From Minicystis rosea (lineage in GTDB: Bacteria > Myxococcota_A > Polyangia > Polyangiales > Polyangiaceae), in assembly GCA_001931535.1 (NCBI GenBank), contig CP016211.1, positions 12,880,377 through 12,944,376 of the forward strand: a DNA stretch of 64,000 nt, in the 5' to 3' direction. The translations under genes were made by a program, and so were the position numbers. This document shows positions 12,153-54,445 of this stretch, in pieces; positions within the stretch are counted from its first letter, which is position 1; every line of letters begins with the position of its first letter. The notes under the pieces were generated by a model. It did not search any database. It saw only the letters and a program-made list of their open reading frames with translations, and was not told the DNA's origin.

Positions 12153-12633
12153 GCGCGGCGCCCGCGAACATCGGGGCCGATGTTCGCTTGCGAGACCATG
12201 GCTCGTGCAGCGTCGTCGTCGATACCCGATCTTCTCTTCGTGAGCTGTCGCGCTCGAGCGGAGAGGCTCCGCGCCTGAGCCGGTATGTCGGCTGGAGATG
12301 GCGATTGGGGGCTTCGACGAGATGTCTCGAGTGACGACCGAGGGTGCTCGTCGCGCCTGCCAGCTCATCGAGGCTTTGGCAGCGGCCTCGGCGAAGCGAT
12401 TGCTCTCGAGATATCGAGTCTCCGGCGCAATGCAGGCGAGCGATCCGAGGGAGTGTGAGCGTCTCGATATCCACCCTCGACGGATCGATGCGTCGGCGCA
12501 AGAGATTCCGTTGCACGGCGGTCCGAGCGCGGCAGGAGCGGGGCGGAGCTCTCATCGGGCGGCGTCAGCCGATCGGTGTCGATCTGCGTCCTCTCATCGT
12601 CTCGGCGCGCAGTCGGCAGGAGGAGCGCAGTCC
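12153..12633 (+). other. 481-bp intergenic region, no gene seen
   Basis: No reading frame here shows a recognisable domain, a plausible ribosome-binding site and the codon bias of the neighbours together. It probably holds the promoter and leader of the repeat protein that starts at 12634. A strong Shine-Dalgarno sequence (CAGGAGGAGC) sits at 12617-12626. An in-frame extension of the repeat protein back to 12298 is open, but it lacks this site and looks unlike protein. Confidence 0.6.
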
Positions 12634-14181
12634 ATGAAGAGCACCGATCCCAAGGACAAGGGCCTCTCGACCACGTCCGCGATGCAGGAGAAAGGGAGCG
12701 AGAAGCTCACGACGGGCGAACAGCGCGTGAGCTCGTCCGAGAAGGTCGAAGTGCGTCACGAGGCCATCGAGACCGCGACCCGCATGGAGCTGGTTTCGGA
12801 GGTCGTGGAGGTGACCAAGGAGGTGGTCAAGACCGAGATCGAGATCACCCCGGCCGAGTTCAAGGCCGCCGATTTCAAGCCAGCCGAATTCAAGGACGCC
12901 GAGTTCAAGGACGCCGAGTACAAGCCTGCCAAGTTCGAGCAAGCCGCTTTCAAGCCGGCGGAGTTCAAGGCCGCGGAGTTCAAGGCGGCCGAGTTCAAGC
13001 CGGCGGAGTTCAAGCAGGGGAGTTATCGACCTGCGGAGTTCAAACCGGCGGAGTTCAAGCCCGCGGTGTACAAGCCTGCCGAGTTCCGCGAAGCGTCGTA
13101 CAAGCCGGCCGAGTTCAAGGCTGCCGAGTTCAAACCGGCAGAGTTCAAACCGGCGGAGTTCAAGCCGGCCGAGTTCAAGGCTGCCGAGTACAAGCCGGCG
13201 GAGTACAAGCCTGCCGAATACAAGGCTGCCGAGTACAGACCGGCGGAATACAAGGCTGCCGAGTACAGACCGGCGGAATACAAGGAAGCGGAGTACAGGC
13301 CGGCGGAATACAAGGCTGCCGAGTACAAGCAGGCCGAGTTCAGGCCGGCGGAGTACAAGCAGGCGGAGTTCAGGCCTGCGAGCTTCGCGCCCGCGGAGTA
13401 CAAGCAGGCCGAGTACAAGCCGGCGGAGTACAAGCAAGCGGAGTACAAGCCGGCGGAGTTCAGGCAGGCGGAGATCGAGGGCAAGACCGTCGAAGGCAAG
13501 CCGGTCGAGGTGATGCGCACGGTGGTGCCGCACGTGGTGGAGAGCCATCGCGTGGTGGTGGCGCCGTCGAGCCAAGCGTCGGTGCAGTCTTCGAACCAAG
13601 CGTCGAGTCAGGCGTCGAGCCAGGAGCGGGTCGTCGTGTCGCAGCGGGAGGACCGCGTGCAAGAGGAGCGCGTGCAAGGGACGTCGCGGACCGCGGCGAG
13701 CGCGCCGCCGCTGCGCGCCGTGCCGACCGCGAAGGAGGTGGCCTGGTCGGAGGCGGAGATCGAGCGGCTCAACGAGTACCTCCGGTTGGAGATGAATGCG
13801 GTGAAGACCTACGAGATGACCATGGATCGCACGCGCGATCGGGCCATCCGGCACGCGCTCGTCGATCTGCGCGACAACCACGAGCGGCGCGCCTCGAGCC
13901 TGCGCCAGACGATTCGGGCCGCGGGCGTCGAGCCGGCGAAGAGCTCGTCCGTGTGGGGCGCGGTCGGCCGCATCATCCAGCGCGGCTCGGAGCTGTTCGG
14001 CGATCGCAGCGCGCCGGCGGCGCTGCTCGAAGAGGAGCAGAACGGGCTCGATCTCTACACCCGCGATCAGGGCGGGGGCAGCGCGGCGATCGCGAGCTAC
14101 GTGCGCCACAACCTCCTCCCCGAGCAGCAGCGGACGTTCGAGATGGCGAAGTCGCTCTCGAAGACCATGAAGGCGGCGTGA
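12634..14181 (+). CDS. PAEF/PAEY tandem-pentapeptide protein with C-terminal ferritin-like helical bundle
   Basis: 515 residues in four parts: a charged N-terminus (1-71, rich in Glu/Val/Lys), 42 tandem pentapeptides of the form [KR]-[PAQ]-A-E-[FY] (72-281), a Ser/Gln/Val-rich linker, and a helical domain at about 370-515. The pentapeptide register A-E-[FY]-K-x resembles the A-[DN]-L-x-x pentapeptide beta-helix, but with Glu before the core position and aromatic residues in the core. The C-terminal domain (EIERLNEYLRLEMNAVKTYE, later LEEEQNGLDLY) looks like a four-helix ferritin-like or DUF2383-type stress bundle. The start is fixed by AGGAGG 8 bases upstream. No signal peptide is seen, so it is presumed cytosolic. 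Function is unknown. Confidence 0.8.
   Translation: MKSTDPKDKGLSTTSAMQEKGSEKLTTGEQRVSSSEKVEVRHEAIETATRMELVSEVVEVTKEVVKTEIEITPAEFKAADFKPAEFKDAEFKDAEYKPAKFEQAAFKPAEFKAAEFKAAEFKPAEFKQGSYRPAEFKPAEFKPAVYKPAEFREASYKPAEFKAAEFKPAEFKPAEFKPAEFKAAEYKPAEYKPAEYKAAEYRPAEYKAAEYRPAEYKEAEYRPAEYKAAEYKQAEFRPAEYKQAEFRPASFAPAEYKQAEYKPAEYKQAEYKPAEFRQAEIEGKTVEGKPVEVMRTVVPHVVESHRVVVAPSSQASVQSSNQASSQASSQERVVVSQREDRVQEERVQGTSRTAASAPPLRAVPTAKEVAWSEAEIERLNEYLRLEMNAVKTYEMTMDRTRDRAIRHALVDLRDNHERRASSLRQTIRAAGVEPAKSSSVWGAVGRIIQRGSELFGDRSAPAALLEEEQNGLDLYTRDQGGGSAAIASYVRHNLLPEQQRTFEMAKSLSKTMKAA
12847..13476 (+). repeat. 42 tandem copies of a 15-bp coding repeat
   Basis: The segment is 630 bp, exactly 42 units of 15 bp, each encoding one pentapeptide such as KPAEF, KAAEY or KQAEY. 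Third positions vary between units (GAG-TTC, GAA-TAC, CCG/CCT/CCC), so the array is not a recent slippage product, and the amino-acid pattern is under selection. Phenylalanine units dominate the first half and tyrosine units the second. Array length is likely to vary between strains. Confidence 0.95.
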
Positions 14182-30557: not shown

Positions 30558-31385
30558 TCACCTCTCTCCCACCATGGCGCTCGGCCCGATCCCCAAGCCG
30601 AACGCGGGCTTCCACGCCACGAGCAGCCCAACCCACCCGACAACCGGCGATTCCAACGAGGTCATCGTCCCCGCCACCGCGGCAAAACGTGATTCCAACG
30701 ATGGAGGCGCGCCGACCCGCGCGGTGAACGAGACTTCCAACGATGAAGGCGCGCCGACCCGTGCGGTGAACCAGACTTGCAACGATGGAGGCGCGCCGAT
30801 CCGTGCGGTGAACCAGACTTGCAACGATGGAGGCGCGCCGACCCGTGCAGCCAACGAGACTTGCAACGATGGAGGCGCGCCGACCCGCGCGCTGAACGAG
30901 ACTTGCAACGATGGAGGCGCGCCAGCCCGTGCAGCCAACGAGACTTGCAACGATGGAGGCGCGCCGACCCGCGCGCTGAACGAGACTTGCAACGCCGTCA
31001 TCGCTCGGGACCGTGCAGCGATCGAGACTTCCAACGTCGTCATCGCTCCGGCCGGCGCTGCGGAGGCGGATTTCGCCGAAAAGAGCGCATCCGCGGGCGA
31101 CGCGACCGCGGATGGAATCGAGAGGGACGCTTCGGTCCGCGCTGCCGACCGGCATTTCATCGAGAAGCTCGCTTCGGCCCGCGAGGTAAGTGCGGATCTC
31201 ACCGAGGCGAGCGCTTTGGCCGGCGAGGCGAACACGGATGTCGCCGAGGTCATCGCTTCGATCGGCGATGCAACTGGGGAGCCCGGCAAGGGCATCGCTT
31301 CGATCGGCGATGCCGCCGGGAATCCCGGCAAGGCCTTCGGCTCCATCTCCGCGCCGGCGCGCGCAGCCCTCGGTCGGCTCGTCAC
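30558..31385 (-). CDS. Possible repeat protein across the 42-bp array (coding strand uncertain)
   Basis: An open frame of 275 codons from a GTG at 31385 (AGGAG lies just upstream) reads as 14-residue repeats with a fixed pattern of hydrophobic and small residues: SARVGAPPSLQVSL, AARAGAPPSLQVSF, TARVGAPSSLEVSF in one part and ASPIEAMPLPGSPV, ASPAKALASVRSAL in the other. It runs with its neighbours on the minus strand. The plus strand is also open (30436-31395, repeats of TCNDGGAPTRALNE type), and the two frames share the same wobble positions, so codon bias cannot choose between them. No signal peptide or known domain is seen. Confidence 0.33.
   Translation of the reverse strand: MTSRPRAARAGAEMEPKALPGFPAASPIEAMPLPGSPVASPIEAMTSATSVFASPAKALASVRSALTSRAEASFSMKCRSAARTEASLSIPSAVASPADALFSAKSASAAPAGAMTTLEVSIAARSRAMTALQVSFSARVGAPPSLQVSLAARAGAPPSLQVSFSARVGAPPSLQVSLAARVGAPPSLQVWFTARIGAPPSLQVWFTARVGAPSSLEVSFTARVGAPPSLESRFAAVAGTMTSLESPVVGWVGLLVAWKPAFGLGIGPSAMVGER
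30649..31362. repeat. Seventeen 42-bp tandem repeats in unbroken phase
   Basis: The array is 714 bp, 17 units of 42 bp with no length change. Units 2-8 (30691-30984) are nearly identical, with the core AACGATGGAGGCGCGCCGAC. Unit 1 and units 9-17 are degenerate but keep phase, for example the ATCGCTTCGATCGGCGATGC segments near 31250-31320. A period divisible by three and the lack of indels across degenerate units suggest selection for reading frame rather than a neutral minisatellite. Confidence 0.9.
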
Positions 31386-44416: not shown

Positions 44417-46156
44417 CTAAAGGGACCGCGGCGGGGGGCGCCACGCTTCGGCGGCGAGACGATCGGGATCGGTGCGGCGCGCGGTGAGCACGAGGGCCTC
44501 CGTCCAGCGAGCGCCGTCTTGTTGGATGGCGTGGAGATCGGCGCGGGAGAGGTCGGCGCTGCCGAGATCGGCATGGCGGAGATCGGCGTGCGCGAGCAAA
44601 GCGTCCTCCAGGCGCGCGGCCACGAAGCGCGCGGCGCGGGCCCGCGCGCGGGTGAGCACGGCTTCGCGCAGATCGGCGCCCGAGAGATCGGCCTCGCCGA
44701 GATCGGCGCCCGCGAAGACGGCGCCGCGGAGCATGGCTTTGAAGAGACGCGCTCCGCGCAGGGAGGCGTCGCCGAAGTAGGCCGTGCGCGCGGCGAGCTC
44801 GGTGAAGCGCGCGCGATCGAGGCGCGCCTCGGCGAAGCTCGCGCTCTCGAGGAGGCAGGCGTCGAACACGGCGCCCGAGAGATCGCTTTGGGCGAAGTTG
44901 CTGCGGGAGAGGTTGCAGCCGCGGAAGACCGCGCCGGCGAGGTTGGATCCGACGAGCTGGCAGCGCGTCATGGTCACGCCGGCGAGGCCGAGGGCGCGGA
45001 CGTCGACGCCGCCGAGATCGACGTTGTCGAAGATGGCCCGCTCGACCTTGGCGCCGTCGAGGCGCGCGCCCGGCATCTGCGCCTGCTTCATGAGCACGCG
45101 GGTGAGATCGGCGCCCGAGAGATCGACGCCGTCGAGGATGGCGCGCTCCACGCGCGCGCCCGAGAGATCGGCGCCCGAGAGATCGGCGCGCGTGAGGATC
45201 ACGCCCACGAGATCGCGGCCCCGGAGATCTGCGCCGGGGAGCTTGGCGCCGCTGAGCATGGAGCCGGTGAAGCTCGCGCCGTGGAGATCGGCGCCGGTGA
45301 GATCGCAGTCCGCGAGGATCGTGTTCTCGAGGCGGGCGTCGCGCAGGTTGGCGTTCCGCAGGTTGGCGCCGCGGAGCGACGAGGAGGACAGGTTCGCGCC
45401 CGCGAGATCGACGCCGGACAGGTCTCGTCCGTCGAGCTCGGCGCCGGAGAGGTCTTTGCCGCCGAGCTTCTTTTCGCCGAGGATCGCCTCGTCGAAGATG
45501 GTCTTGCTCATGCGCCGCGGGAGCACGGCGCCCGAGAGATCGGCTTTGACGAAGACGACCCGATCGAGCTCGGCGCCCGAGAAATCGGCGCCCTGGAGGT
45601 TGGCCGCGATGAGCGAGCACCCTTCGATTTTCGTGTCACGAAGGACTGCGCCGCCGAGCTTGGCGCGGATCAGCGAGACCTCGGTGAGACGCGCGCCGGT
45701 GAGATCGGCGGAGGTGAGCACGGAAAGGTCGCCGCGCACGTTCTCCAGCGTCGCGCCGTGGAGCTTGGCGCCCGTGAGGTTCGCGCCGGTGAGATCGGCG
45801 CCGGTGAGATCGGCGCCCGAGAGATCGGCGCCCGAGAGGTCTTCGTACGCGAGCTTGGCGCCGCGGAGATCGGCGTTCTGCAGCGAGGCCTCGCAGAGGT
45901 CCGTGGCGAGGAGGAGAGCGTCGCGGAGATCGGCCTCCGAGAGATCGGCGCTGCGCAGATCGCACTCGACGATTTCGGCTCCGCAGAGGTTGGCGGTGCC
46001 GAGCGCGGCCTTCGCGAGGATCACCTTGCGGAGCTTCGCGGCCGGCATCCACGCGTCTGCGAGCGAAGCACCCGTGAGGTCGAGCCCGGTGATGCGCTCG
46101 CCTTCGAGGGACTCGCCGGAAGCGATCGCCGCGAGCAATGCTTCGGCGGTGATCAT
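44417..46156 (-). CDS. Pentapeptide-repeat protein (T6SS island)
   Basis: 579 residues, nearly all pentapeptide repeats of A-[DN]-L-[ST]-G type (LSGADLSGADLTGADLTGA and many degenerate units), giving a long right-handed quadrilateral beta-helix. A short helical cap (EALLAAIASGESLEG) starts the protein. A KTIFDEAILGEKKLGGK segment near residue 215 interrupts the helix. There is no enzymatic site. GGAGG precedes the ATG at 46156, which lies within the 4-bp overlap with the DUF2169-pentapeptide gene. In such loci pentapeptide proteins probably act as scaffolds or adaptors. Confidence 0.9.
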   Translation of the reverse strand: MITAEALLAAIASGESLEGERITGLDLTGASLADAWMPAAKLRKVILAKAALGTANLCGAEIVECDLRSADLSEADLRDALLLATDLCEASLQNADLRGAKLAYEDLSGADLSGADLTGADLTGANLTGAKLHGATLENVRGDLSVLTSADLTGARLTEVSLIRAKLGGAVLRDTKIEGCSLIAANLQGADFSGAELDRVVFVKADLSGAVLPRRMSKTIFDEAILGEKKLGGKDLSGAELDGRDLSGVDLAGANLSSSSLRGANLRNANLRDARLENTILADCDLTGADLHGASFTGSMLSGAKLPGADLRGRDLVGVILTRADLSGADLSGARVERAILDGVDLSGADLTRVLMKQAQMPGARLDGAKVERAIFDNVDLGGVDVRALGLAGVTMTRCQLVGSNLAGAVFRGCNLSRSNFAQSDLSGAVFDACLLESASFAEARLDRARFTELAARTAYFGDASLRGARLFKAMLRGAVFAGADLGEADLSGADLREAVLTRARARAARFVAARLEDALLAHADLRHADLGSADLSRADLHAIQQDGARWTEALVLTARRTDPDRLAAEAWRPPPRSL

Positions 46157-48552
46157 GAAGCCTCCAGGGTGGAGCGGAGGGTATTGGCACCCGTGAAGTC
46201 GCAGCCCTTCAGCAGAGCCCCGAGCAGCTTGGCGTCGTACAGGTTGGCGCCGGTGCAGAGCGCGCGCGTGAGATCGGCTTTGCAGAGATCGGCGCGGAGG
46301 AGGTTCGTGTGGTCGAGCGCGGCGCCCGTGAGCGCGGTGCGGTAGAGGCGCGCGTCGGCGAGATCGGCACAGCGAAACAAGGCCTCTCGCGCATTGGCCT
46401 CGGAGAGGTGCGCTTCGGGCAGTGAGGCCCAGCGCAGATCGGCGCGGGTGAGATTGGCGCGCAGCCAGATGGATCGCGGGGCGCGGATCTCCACGAGGCG
46501 CGCGCCCGTGAGATCGGTGTTCGAGAAGCTCGTTCCGCCGAGATGGGCACCTTCCAAAAGGATGCGGGCGGCGCGTGCGTTCTCGATGCGACAGCGATCG
46601 AGACGGGCGCCGGACCACTGGGCATCTTCCAGGGAGCATTCATCGAAGATCGCTTGAACGAGCTCGGCCCCGCGGCCGTCGCTGCCGGTGAGATCGGCGC
46701 CCGCGAACGACGCGGCCTCGCCACGGACCTCGGCCAGCACGGCGCAGCGGAGCACCGCGCGTCCGGCGTCGAGCTTGTCGATCGTGGCTCCGCGAAGAAT
46801 GACGCCGGTGGCGCGCGCGCGGCCGAGGCTCGCGCCGGTGAGGTTGGCGCGCTCGAGGTTGGCGTCTTCGAGGTTGGCTTCGCTGAGGATGGCGTCGACG
46901 AGCAGCGCGCCTGCGAGGCATGCACCCGAGAGGTTCGCGCCTGCGAGGTGGGCGCCGGTGAGATCGGCGCCGGTGAGATCCGCGCCGCGCAGATCGCGTC
47001 CGCCGAGATCGCGGCCACGGAGATCGACGCCCGGCCCGGGCTCGGCGGGCGCGGCCTCGCCCGGCATGCGGAAGCCGGGTGCGAGCTGCCGGAGGCGTGG
47101 ATCGGCGAGCATCGCTTCGAGTCGATCGAGCCCCGGCACTGGCACGCCCTTGGCCGCCTGCGCCTTGAGCACCTCGACGTTGGCGACGATCCGCTGGAGG
47201 ACCGCGGTGAGCGGAGCGCCCGGCTTCGCCGGCGTCGTCGTCGCGGTGCTTCGATCGTTGACGGCGCCGCTCAGCAGCGCGCGCAGATCGCGGCCTTCGG
47301 GGAGAGGCACGGTGCCCGCTCTCGCGACGGCAGCGCCCACGCGTGCTTGTTGCGGCTTCTCGACGTCGCCGAGCTCGTGACCGAGGAGCGCCGAGATGGG
47401 ATCGGATGCATCGTCGTTTCCCGCGGGCGCCTTGCCGTTCGCGCGCTCTTGCATGAGGCGCCATGGGGCGCGCAGAGACTCGGGCACGGCGCGTTCGAGA
47501 TCGCGCGGATCGCGCTCGAAATCAGCGAGCATCGCGTGATACTCCGCCGCCTCGCGTGCGGGCCCTGCGAGCGGCTCTTCGGCGAGGAGCACGGCGCGCA
47601 CGTCCGCGAGATCGTTCTCCTCGACGGCATCCACGCCGCGCCACGTGAGGAAGAGACGCTCGGCGCCGAGGTCGGCGAAGAGCGTGTCGAGGTGGAGCGG
47701 GACCTCGCGGACGCGACCGTGGACATCGTCGACGAAGGCGCGGATGCGCACGCCGGGGAGGCGCTTCTCGAAGCGCGGCGCCTCGGGGTGAAGGTTCTCG
47801 AAGGCGATGATTTCGTCACCGCGCAGGTACCGATCGAGCTGCTGGTCGGCGGGCGCGGCGTTGAAGTAGGTCCAGTCGAAATCCTCGGCGTAATAGGGAG
47901 CGCGCTGCTTGCGCCAGGCGGCGCCGTATTGCTTGCCCACCTTGCCGGCGCGCGGCGACCAGGCCGGGTTGATGGGCGCGAAGCTCGCCGGTGCCGGTCG
48001 ATCGCGGCGCGTGCGGAGGGGAGCGTCGGGGTGCTCCACGCTCGGCAGCTCGAAGGCGCCGAGCCCTTTGCCCATGGGGTTTTCGAGGTGCCCCGCGCCG
48101 CCGAACGCGTTCTCGTACGTGAGCGGCATGCGCGTGAAGGGCGCGGGCTCGGTCGGCGCTTCGCCGCGCGCGCTCGTCGTCCACACGCGCGGTCCATGCA
48201 CCACGAGCGACTTCGACCACGCGCCCACCGCGAAGCGCACGCGGCACGAGCGCGCCGGGCGACCGCCGGGCGGGTGACACGCGCCCCGGAGCAGCACCTC
48301 GGCGTGCGGCTTGTAGTCGGCGAAATCACCGGGATAGAGGCACTCTTTCGCGCGCTCCTCGTCCTCCTCGGCGAACGTCTCGGCGCTCAAGCTCCCCTGC
48401 GAGAGCGGGAAGATCCCCTCCGGCACCGCGAGCTCCGCGTGCGGCGCGAGCACGAAGGCGCCGCGCACGACGAGCGTCATCTCCGGCTGCGGGGGCCGCC
48501 GCGAGGTGACCTTGTACCCGAAGAGGAAGGGGGTGAGGTTCTGCGCGCGCAT
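46153..48552 (-). CDS. DUF2169 domain joined to pentapeptide repeats
   Basis: 799 residues. The first 310 match DUF2169, a T6SS effector-adaptor domain (LVVRGAFVLAPHAELAVPEG, FTRMPLTYENAFGGAGH, FDWTYFNAAPADQQL). A helical linker follows, then pentapeptide repeats from about 515 to the end (LRGRDLGGRDLRGADLTGAD). The C-terminus overlaps the start of the next gene, itself a pentapeptide protein, by 4 bp. The two may build one continuous beta-helix assembly. DUF2169 proteins act as chaperones that load cargo onto VgrG/PAAR tips. Confidence 0.9.
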   Translation of the reverse strand: MRAQNLTPFLFGYKVTSRRPPQPEMTLVVRGAFVLAPHAELAVPEGIFPLSQGSLSAETFAEEDEERAKECLYPGDFADYKPHAEVLLRGACHPPGGRPARSCRVRFAVGAWSKSLVVHGPRVWTTSARGEAPTEPAPFTRMPLTYENAFGGAGHLENPMGKGLGAFELPSVEHPDAPLRTRRDRPAPASFAPINPAWSPRAGKVGKQYGAAWRKQRAPYYAEDFDWTYFNAAPADQQLDRYLRGDEIIAFENLHPEAPRFEKRLPGVRIRAFVDDVHGRVREVPLHLDTLFADLGAERLFLTWRGVDAVEENDLADVRAVLLAEEPLAGPAREAAEYHAMLADFERDPRDLERAVPESLRAPWRLMQERANGKAPAGNDDASDPISALLGHELGDVEKPQQARVGAAVARAGTVPLPEGRDLRALLSGAVNDRSTATTTPAKPGAPLTAVLQRIVANVEVLKAQAAKGVPVPGLDRLEAMLADPRLRQLAPGFRMPGEAAPAEPGPGVDLRGRDLGGRDLRGADLTGADLTGAHLAGANLSGACLAGALLVDAILSEANLEDANLERANLTGASLGRARATGVILRGATIDKLDAGRAVLRCAVLAEVRGEAASFAGADLTGSDGRGAELVQAIFDECSLEDAQWSGARLDRCRIENARAARILLEGAHLGGTSFSNTDLTGARLVEIRAPRSIWLRANLTRADLRWASLPEAHLSEANAREALFRCADLADARLYRTALTGAALDHTNLLRADLCKADLTRALCTGANLYDAKLLGALLKGCDFTGANTLRSTLEAS

Positions 48553-52657: not shown

Positions 52658-54445
52658 ATGCGCCTCACGAAGCAACGAATGACCTGGTTTCTGATCGCCC
52701 CCGTGCCCCTCTTGGCCGTCGTGCTCGGCGCGATCTCCTGCGTCGGCTCGGAGCCCATGCTGCCCAATCTCGACGGCGGCATCTCGAGCGATGCGAGCAC
52801 TTGCCCCTTCACGCAGTGTGACGGGATCTGCACCGACACACGTGTCGATTCGACCAACTGCGGTGCCTGCGGGCAGGCCTGCAATCCCGGCGAGGTCTGC
52901 GTCGAGGGGGCCTGTGCGGTCTCGTGCCCCGCCGATCAAACGAAGTGCGGATCTTCCTGCATCGCGACCAACGTCGATGCGCAAAACTGCGGCGCGTGCG
53001 GGCATGCCTGCAATCCGGGCGAGGTCTGCGCTGCCGGGACCTGCGCGCTGTCGTGCGCCGCCAATCAAACGAAGTGCGACATCGGCTGCGTCGACACGGC
53101 CAAAGACATCGCCAATTGCGGATCGTGCGGGCATGCGTGCAACGCGGGTGAGGTCTGCGTCGAGAGTGCCTGTGCGGTCTCGTGCCCTCCGAATCAAACG
53201 CAGTGCGACACCGCCTGCGTCGACACCGCCGGTGATCCTGCCAATTGTGGCTCGTGCGGACATGCTTGTGGGGCGGGCGAGGTCTGCCTCGAGGGGGCTT
53301 GTGCGGTCTCGTGCCCTCCGACTCAAACGCAGTGCGGCACCGCGTGCATCGACACGGCCGTCGATTCCAAGAACTGCGGCGCGTGCGGACACGCCTGCGG
53401 TGCCGGCGAGGTTTGCACGGGCGGCGCCTGCGCGGTCTCGTGCCCTCCGACTCAAACGCAGTGCGGCGCCGCGTGCATCGACACGGCCGTCGACTCCAAG
53501 AACTGCGGCGCGTGCGGACACGTCTGCGCGCCCGGCCAACTCTGCGCGTCCGGCGCGTGCGCGCTCACCTGCCCGGCGACGCACGCGATGTGTGAAGGAG
53601 GCACGTTGTGTGTCGACCTCCAGACGAGCAACGCACACTGCGGCGCGTGCGGTGCGGCTTGTCCCGTCGGTCGAACCTGCGTCTCGGGGCAATGCTCGCT
53701 CGTGTGCGAAGCGGGGCGCATCCTCTGCAGCGAGCCGGTCACGACCGACGCGGGCACGTCGCAGGTCTGCGTCGATCCCACCATCGACGTGATGCATTGT
53801 GGCAACTGCGGCACGATGTGTGACGCAGGTCAGTTCTGCTCGGGAGGCACGTGCGCTCATCCGACGTCGTGTGCCGACGTGCTGGCCCACACGGGCCCGG
53901 TCGCCGACGGTCCGCGTACCATTCAGCCTGTGGGCAAGAAGCCCTTCACGGTCCATTGCGCCGGCATGAACACGACGAGCCCGAAGGAGTATTTGACGCT
54001 CGCCTTCACGCGCAACAACGGATCCACCTCGAACTACTCGAGCTTCTCCTGCAGCAACTGCACGGACAAGATCAGTCGCTACTTCGAGAAGATCCGGATC
54101 AATCCGGCAACGCTCGTCGTCGATCGCACCGACAGCACCTTTGCGACCAACGTCACCAACACTCCCACTTGCTGGGCCGGTGCCGGGGGGGCCTGCGGGG
54201 CCGCCACCAACCTCTCCTATGCCCTCGCGGGGAACTGCATCCTCAACGGGGCGGCCGCGCCGGGCAACATCGACCTTCACGGCCTGCCGTTTTCCCTCGA
54301 TCCCAGCGTCACCTTCACGCTGAAGGACGATAATCCCTACGGATCCGCCACGATCAGCACGGACCGCAAGAAGGTGGACCTCACGGGTGGCGGGTCCTGC
54401 GGCGGCATGTCGCCGAGCGGTGCGCTGCTCTTGAAGCAGGACTGA
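52658..54445 (+). CDS. Cys-rich repeat lipoprotein with GON domain
   Basis: 595 residues. The lipobox is LGAISC. Seven to eight repeats of about 43 residues follow (about 48-390), each with the core NCGACGHAC, GEVC and CAVSCP, six cysteines per unit. The C-terminal domain (about 405-595) reads CADVLAHTG, FTVHCAGMNTTSPKEYLTLA, NYSSFSCSNC and CWAGAGGACG. This is the GON domain pattern first described in animal ADAMTS GON-1, which also occurs in myxobacteria. The protein is probably an extended, disulfide-rich surface stalk carrying a GON binding head. Confidence 0.85.
   Translation: MRLTKQRMTWFLIAPVPLLAVVLGAISCVGSEPMLPNLDGGISSDASTCPFTQCDGICTDTRVDSTNCGACGQACNPGEVCVEGACAVSCPADQTKCGSSCIATNVDAQNCGACGHACNPGEVCAAGTCALSCAANQTKCDIGCVDTAKDIANCGSCGHACNAGEVCVESACAVSCPPNQTQCDTACVDTAGDPANCGSCGHACGAGEVCLEGACAVSCPPTQTQCGTACIDTAVDSKNCGACGHACGAGEVCTGGACAVSCPPTQTQCGAACIDTAVDSKNCGACGHVCAPGQLCASGACALTCPATHAMCEGGTLCVDLQTSNAHCGACGAACPVGRTCVSGQCSLVCEAGRILCSEPVTTDAGTSQVCVDPTIDVMHCGNCGTMCDAGQFCSGGTCAHPTSCADVLAHTGPVADGPRTIQPVGKKPFTVHCAGMNTTSPKEYLTLAFTRNNGSTSNYSSFSCSNCTDKISRYFEKIRINPATLVVDRTDSTFATNVTNTPTCWAGAGGACGAATNLSYALAGNCILNGAAAPGNIDLHGLPFSLDPSVTFTLKDDNPYGSATISTDRKKVDLTGGGSCGGMSPSGALLLKQD

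Follow-up and report, generated by a model that had tools for sequence, protein, structure and literature searches.

The array gene and its surroundings

Minicystis rosea is a soil bacterium with a giant genome, and the chromosome of strain DSM 24000 comprises 16,040,666 bases (PMC8436480). Within a stretch of 64,000 nucleotides from this species, referred to here as the window, positions 12634..14181 of the plus strand hold a gene for a protein of 515 aa (58.0 kDa, calculated pI 6.3). A Shine-Dalgarno-like AGGAGG is seen in the sequence 10 nt ahead of the ATG (12618..12623, plus strand). The protein begins with a charged head that lacks aromatic residues (residues 1-72; 12634..12849, plus strand), in which a single helix is predicted (42-65) and for which relatives were sought and none found. 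The head is followed by 42 tandem five-residue units of the form [P/A/Q]-A-E-[F/Y]-[K/R] (residues 73-282; 12850..13479, plus strand), by a Val/Ser/Gln-rich linker predicted to be unstructured (residues 283-372; 13480..13749, plus strand), and by a helical, ferritin-like DUF2383 domain (PF09537; residues 373-515; 13750..14178, plus strand). The upstream neighbours encode a GlgC-like nucleotidyltransferase and a calcineurin-like phosphatase, and the downstream neighbour, on the opposite strand, encodes an ATP-grasp protein; the neighbouring genes suggest no operon partner for the array gene.

Composition and register of the array

The first-pass annotation had described the array as 42 PAEF/PAEY pentapeptides in a perfect five-residue register over 210 residues. 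The register is indeed unbroken, with 42 units and zero insertions or deletions, although the array spans residues 73-282 rather than 72-281. The count of 42 units also holds, while the literal description does not, since PAEF or PAEY occurs in just 20 of the 42 units: the register is perfect, but the units are not. The five positions of the unit are occupied as follows: P23/A8/Q7/D2/E2 at position 1, A41/G1 at position 2, E35/S3/D1/K1/A1/V1 at position 3, F22/Y19/I1 at position 4, and K31/R8/E2/A1 at position 5, which is thus Lys or Arg in 39 of 42 units. At the DNA level, Tandem Repeats Finder reported a 15-bp period with 41.6 copies and a score of 409. The motif A-x-[FYI] occurred 41 times in one phase, a count that never exceeded 9 when the array's residues were shuffled 5,000 times. 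Aromatics make up 20% of the array, all of them at position 4, and its net charge is -2 over 210 residues. A shift from Phe to Tyr along the array, also noted at first reading, was recovered: units 1-22 contain 18 Phe and 4 Tyr, and units 23-41 contain 15 Tyr and 4 Phe, although the drift is only modest by a runs test (p = 0.02). Pro also shows a tendency to fall in every other unit (p = 0.001 by shuffling), which creates a weak superperiod of 10 residues.

The coding strand

The array is real and is coding in the sense frame. A five-residue repeat can, however, be mirrored on the opposite strand, where the best antisense frame of this array reads A-[G/A/C/S]-L-[N/Y]-S, which is pentapeptide-like. 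If the minus strand were the coding one, the array would be only the mirror reading of such a repeat. There is a precedent: a viral contig gave one match to the array, which was rejected as a relative because the contig encodes a canonical A-N-L-[Y/S]-S pentapeptide protein (L129:1515-2349, minus strand) and the match, an open FAE[Y/D]R frame, is that gene read on the wrong strand. In M. rosea, the antisense frame holds a stop, uses TTG for 32 of its 40 Leu codons (compared with 4.6% of Leu codons in the genes of the window), and has a poorer codon bias (-0.02 bits per codon for the best antisense frame versus +0.28 for the sense frame, the only one with a positive value in the array). Its translation matched no Pfam family, whereas the plus frame leads into the conserved DUF2383 domain and is preceded by the good Shine-Dalgarno sequence. 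Coding on the minus strand is largely refuted by the stop, the TTG usage and the codon bias, and we regard it as almost certainly wrong.

Over all pairs of units, pS was 0.56 and pN was 0.22, a ratio of 0.39 that takes no account of gene conversion between units and does not by itself decide the strand, because the sense and antisense frames share their third codon positions. The excess of silent differences over replacements suggests that the motif is maintained in the protein sequence.

Comparison with pentapeptide beta-helices

We compared the array with 24 canonical pentapeptide arrays (559 units) from the M. rosea genome and its relatives, selected by a filter under which Tyr at i was permitted. 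Pentapeptide repeat proteins (PF00805, the Rfr right-handed quadrilateral beta-helix) share with the array the five-residue period, more than eight tandem units, and Ala at i-2 (41 of 42 units here, 83% of the relatives' canonical units), and half of the array's units have Phe at i. The remaining positions differ. Glu occupies i-1 in 83% of the array units but in 2.0% of the 559 canonical units, and Asp is found there in only one of 42. Tyr stands at i in 19 of 42 units (45%) and in 0/559 canonical ones, and the array has 22 Phe but no Leu at this position. Pro is present at i+2 in 23 of 42 units (55%), compared with 0/559. Judged by the features expected of the Rfr fold, the array has a tandem run of eight or more in-register five-residue units and a small residue, usually Ala, at i-2, while it lacks the Asp/Asn at i-1 of the original consensus, is not free of Pro at i+2 as the turn geometry demands, and is not predicted to form a quadrilateral beta-helix (single-sequence prediction). 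The phi angle of proline is fixed near -65. In pentapeptide repeats, type II turns place i+2 at a phi of +64 to +72, which excludes Pro, and the type I turn has about -127 there; the widened consensus does permit Glu at i-1 (PMC7337050).

Profile searches gave a mixed picture. The array passed the cut-offs of PF25296 Decapeptide (104 bits, cut-off 45) and of PF13599 (58.6 bits, cut-off 38), but did not match PF00805, a model that gives 145.7 bits on one of the window's canonical repeat proteins. When the residue order within the units was permuted or reversed, the PF25296 and PF13599 scores dropped to roughly 21 and 17 bits or were lost altogether, and hence the A-x-F spacing does resemble that of pentapeptide and DotG-type repeats. 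One permuted array, however, passed the cut-off for Extensin (112.7 of 105), which shows that curated cut-offs are unsafe on arrays of this kind.

In an AlphaFold2 prediction of the full protein, run with no alignment, the array had a pLDDT of ~42 and zero strands. As a control, 210 residues of the canonical repeat protein from the window were folded alone by the same method, while the array was folded within the full protein. The control showed a strand every five residues with a pLDDT of 78-92 over residues ~75-210 (two thirds of its length), and the folded control matched solved pentapeptide proteins in Foldseek. Since its less regular first 74 residues also came out unfolded, the negative prediction for the array is weak, not absolute. 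The control comes from the canonical pentapeptide repeat genes at window positions 44417-47018 (minus strand), one of which forms part of a long frame that also encodes a second domain. Taken together, sequence and model indicate that the array is most likely no pentapeptide beta-helix, and the variant of that fold proposed in the first-pass annotation was for the most part not borne out.

The decapeptide repeats of DotG/IcmE (PF25296) resemble the array in having A-E-[L/F]-K-like units. DotG alternates AGF[S/T]A with xELKx, whereas the array units have no such alternation, and DotG is a VirB10-type secretion protein, whereas the array protein ends in DUF2383. The full-length IcmE/DotG model NF033900 gave 88 bits on the array protein, well below the required 750. 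In the literature that we examined, the fold of the DotG repeats is not settled.

The DUF2383 domain

The helical ferritin-like domain recognized at first reading proved to be DUF2383: PF09537 matched residues 376-466 with 35.6 bits against a cut-off of 30.8. AlphaFold2 predicted helices at residues 373-396, 399-429, 438-455, 460-469, 482-493 and 496-514, with low confidence. The domain can be aligned with PA2169, the solved member of this four-helix-bundle family (PDB 4etr), and likewise with numerous small relatives in the family. Glu102, Asp106 and His139 of PA2169 were considered a possible metal site by its authors, who could not show metal binding (PMC3539698). In the alignment to PA2169, these residues correspond to Leu465, Gln469 and Phe502 of the M. 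rosea protein (14026..14139, plus strand), while the triad is intact in 8/8 aligned relatives. Unlike PA2169-type proteins, the domain has thus lost the Glu/Asp/His triad and is fused to a 42-unit array.

DUF2383 was present in 43 of 108 genomes of the same taxonomic family. The relatives examined are mostly short proteins with little beyond the domain, and mostly lack such an array. Six genomes of one related genus (g15; loci L080-L085) share a bundle orthologue with a conserved, Ala-rich, LEA-like N-terminal extension that is quite different from the array. We found no synteny with these six orthologues, the sole shared neighbour being an unspecific kinase match.

Rarity of the array

Among 379 genomes of the phylum, two contain three consecutive AE[F/Y][K/R] units. 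One is M. rosea itself, with 22 places that all lie in this array; the other (G079) has one short run of doubtful coding status and was rejected. Outside M. rosea, a search of 84,980 species genomes with a four-unit pattern found a single run of four units, located in a cyanobacterial metagenome-assembled genome, where it lies in a 124-aa frame without the remaining parts. A two-unit pattern in 284 genomes had one other match, which falls within a PDZ-protease-like frame and is not an array. Protein searches of genome contigs yielded 54 pattern matches and confirmed none as an array relative, although the low-complexity filter may hide some; phages and plasmids gave no match, and no second genome of the genus Minicystis was found among the genomes searched. 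Some of these collections may omit records very near the M. rosea genome itself. No protein with this layout was found in the databases searched, including the 84,980 species genomes for the array, which agrees with the first-pass annotation. From these sequence searches, the protein is probably specific to the Minicystis lineage.

Five-residue tracts built on Ala-Glu are, by contrast, common. Of 184 genomes from the order, 76 contain six-unit A-E-x-x-x tracts, such as AEKPA and AEPKK (DNA level, both strands, every frame). They share with the array the five-residue period, the Ala-Glu pair and often Pro and Lys, but those seen lack an aromatic in every unit. It is therefore the aromatic that sets the array apart, and the array may plausibly be the aromatic form of a widespread low-complexity linker.

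The M. rosea genome has a second five-residue array (G000:C1:1478515-1479354, minus strand; loci L002, L005), a putative coding frame of 370 aa that contains dozens of SAE[R/I]x pentads and has no Pfam match. The window itself contains a 42-bp tandem repeat at 30678-30994 (7.6 copies, with an 84-bp higher-order unit) and a 129-bp tandem repeat at 52844-53527 (5.3 copies, with a Cys-rich consensus).

Interpretation of the array protein

We consider it about an even bet (probability near 0.5) that the gene encodes a soluble protein of the Minicystis lineage in which a DUF2383 bundle bears a flexible, aromatic-charged sticker-spacer tract of 42 pentads, and we hold this to be more likely than a folded repeat. 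Bundle relatives that lack the array were counted in favor of this reading. The tract would be a flexible, near-neutral polyampholyte, presumably disordered, presenting an aromatic "sticker" once every five residues, between a cation and an anion. The tract could then self-associate, or hold a partner by multivalent binding, through numerous weak contacts of the aromatic, cation-pi and salt-bridge types. With its conserved triad gone, the bundle would mediate oligomerisation or docking rather than act as a metal enzyme. Together, tract and bundle may form a scaffold or a condensate-type tether. Resilin-like and elastin-like repeats are aromatic sticker-and-spacer polypeptides. In spider silk, Arg-Tyr pairs serve as stickers (PMC12772222). 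The array shares with these polypeptides the regularly spaced aromatics and cations and the low-complexity chain; the likeness is one of composition alone, and the array differs from them in having Glu in each unit and a chain attached to a helical bundle. Its composition is compatible with a coacervating repeat, another of the possibilities raised in the first-pass annotation. A literature search on condensates together with ferritin found no match.

The same chain could instead be a near-neutral, low-complexity spacer with no sticker function, a product of repeat expansion through slippage and unequal crossing-over within one lineage that does no more than hold the bundle off the N-terminus. 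The lack of any array relative found, the frequency of A-E-x-x-x tracts in the order, and the quite different Ala-rich extension on the bundle orthologues of the related genus are all in line with a spacer. Its difficulty lies in the conservation of the unit: the motif is kept though silent sites diverge, and 41 of 42 units have Phe or Tyr as their fourth residue, while aromatics are absent from the rest of the array. We consider such a spacer unlikely. Of the folded alternatives, a variant right-handed beta-helix, winding 10.5 coils around an aromatic core and having ladders of Glu and corners of Pro, on a plan akin to pentapeptide repeats or DotG decapeptides, would account for the near-invariant Ala at i-2 and the aromatic at i in 41 of 42 units, as well as for the order-specific PF25296 and PF13599 scores. 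It would also fit the phmmer results, in which DotG/IcmE repeats (E 6e-40) and pentapeptide proteins, both designed and natural, were matched, although low-complexity repeats inflate scores of this kind. This variant helix is nonetheless improbable, given the Pro at i+2 where phi is positive or about -127, the Tyr at i that is absent from the relatives' units, the missing PF00805 match, and the strandless prediction obtained where the control folds. A beta-solenoid of an unsolved kind, having five residues per side, an all-aromatic core, Glu and Lys ladders outside and Pro corners, and sitting on the ferritin-like bundle, would be the new solenoid envisaged at first reading; we think it quite improbable.

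Implications

The array carries two cautions for sequence surveys. Profile libraries label such an array as a pentapeptide or decapeptide repeat even though its chemistry breaks the geometry of that fold. Furthermore, canonical repeat genes read on the wrong strand give look-alike AE[Y/D]R arrays, a trap for scans based on the AE-aromatic motif. If the array folds, it would represent a new solenoid. If it is a flexible sticker array, M. rosea would possess a natural and very regular bacterial polymer of 42 near-identical units with Phe-rich and Tyr-rich halves, which would offer a direct test-bed for the aromatic, charge and proline spacing rules of protein condensation.
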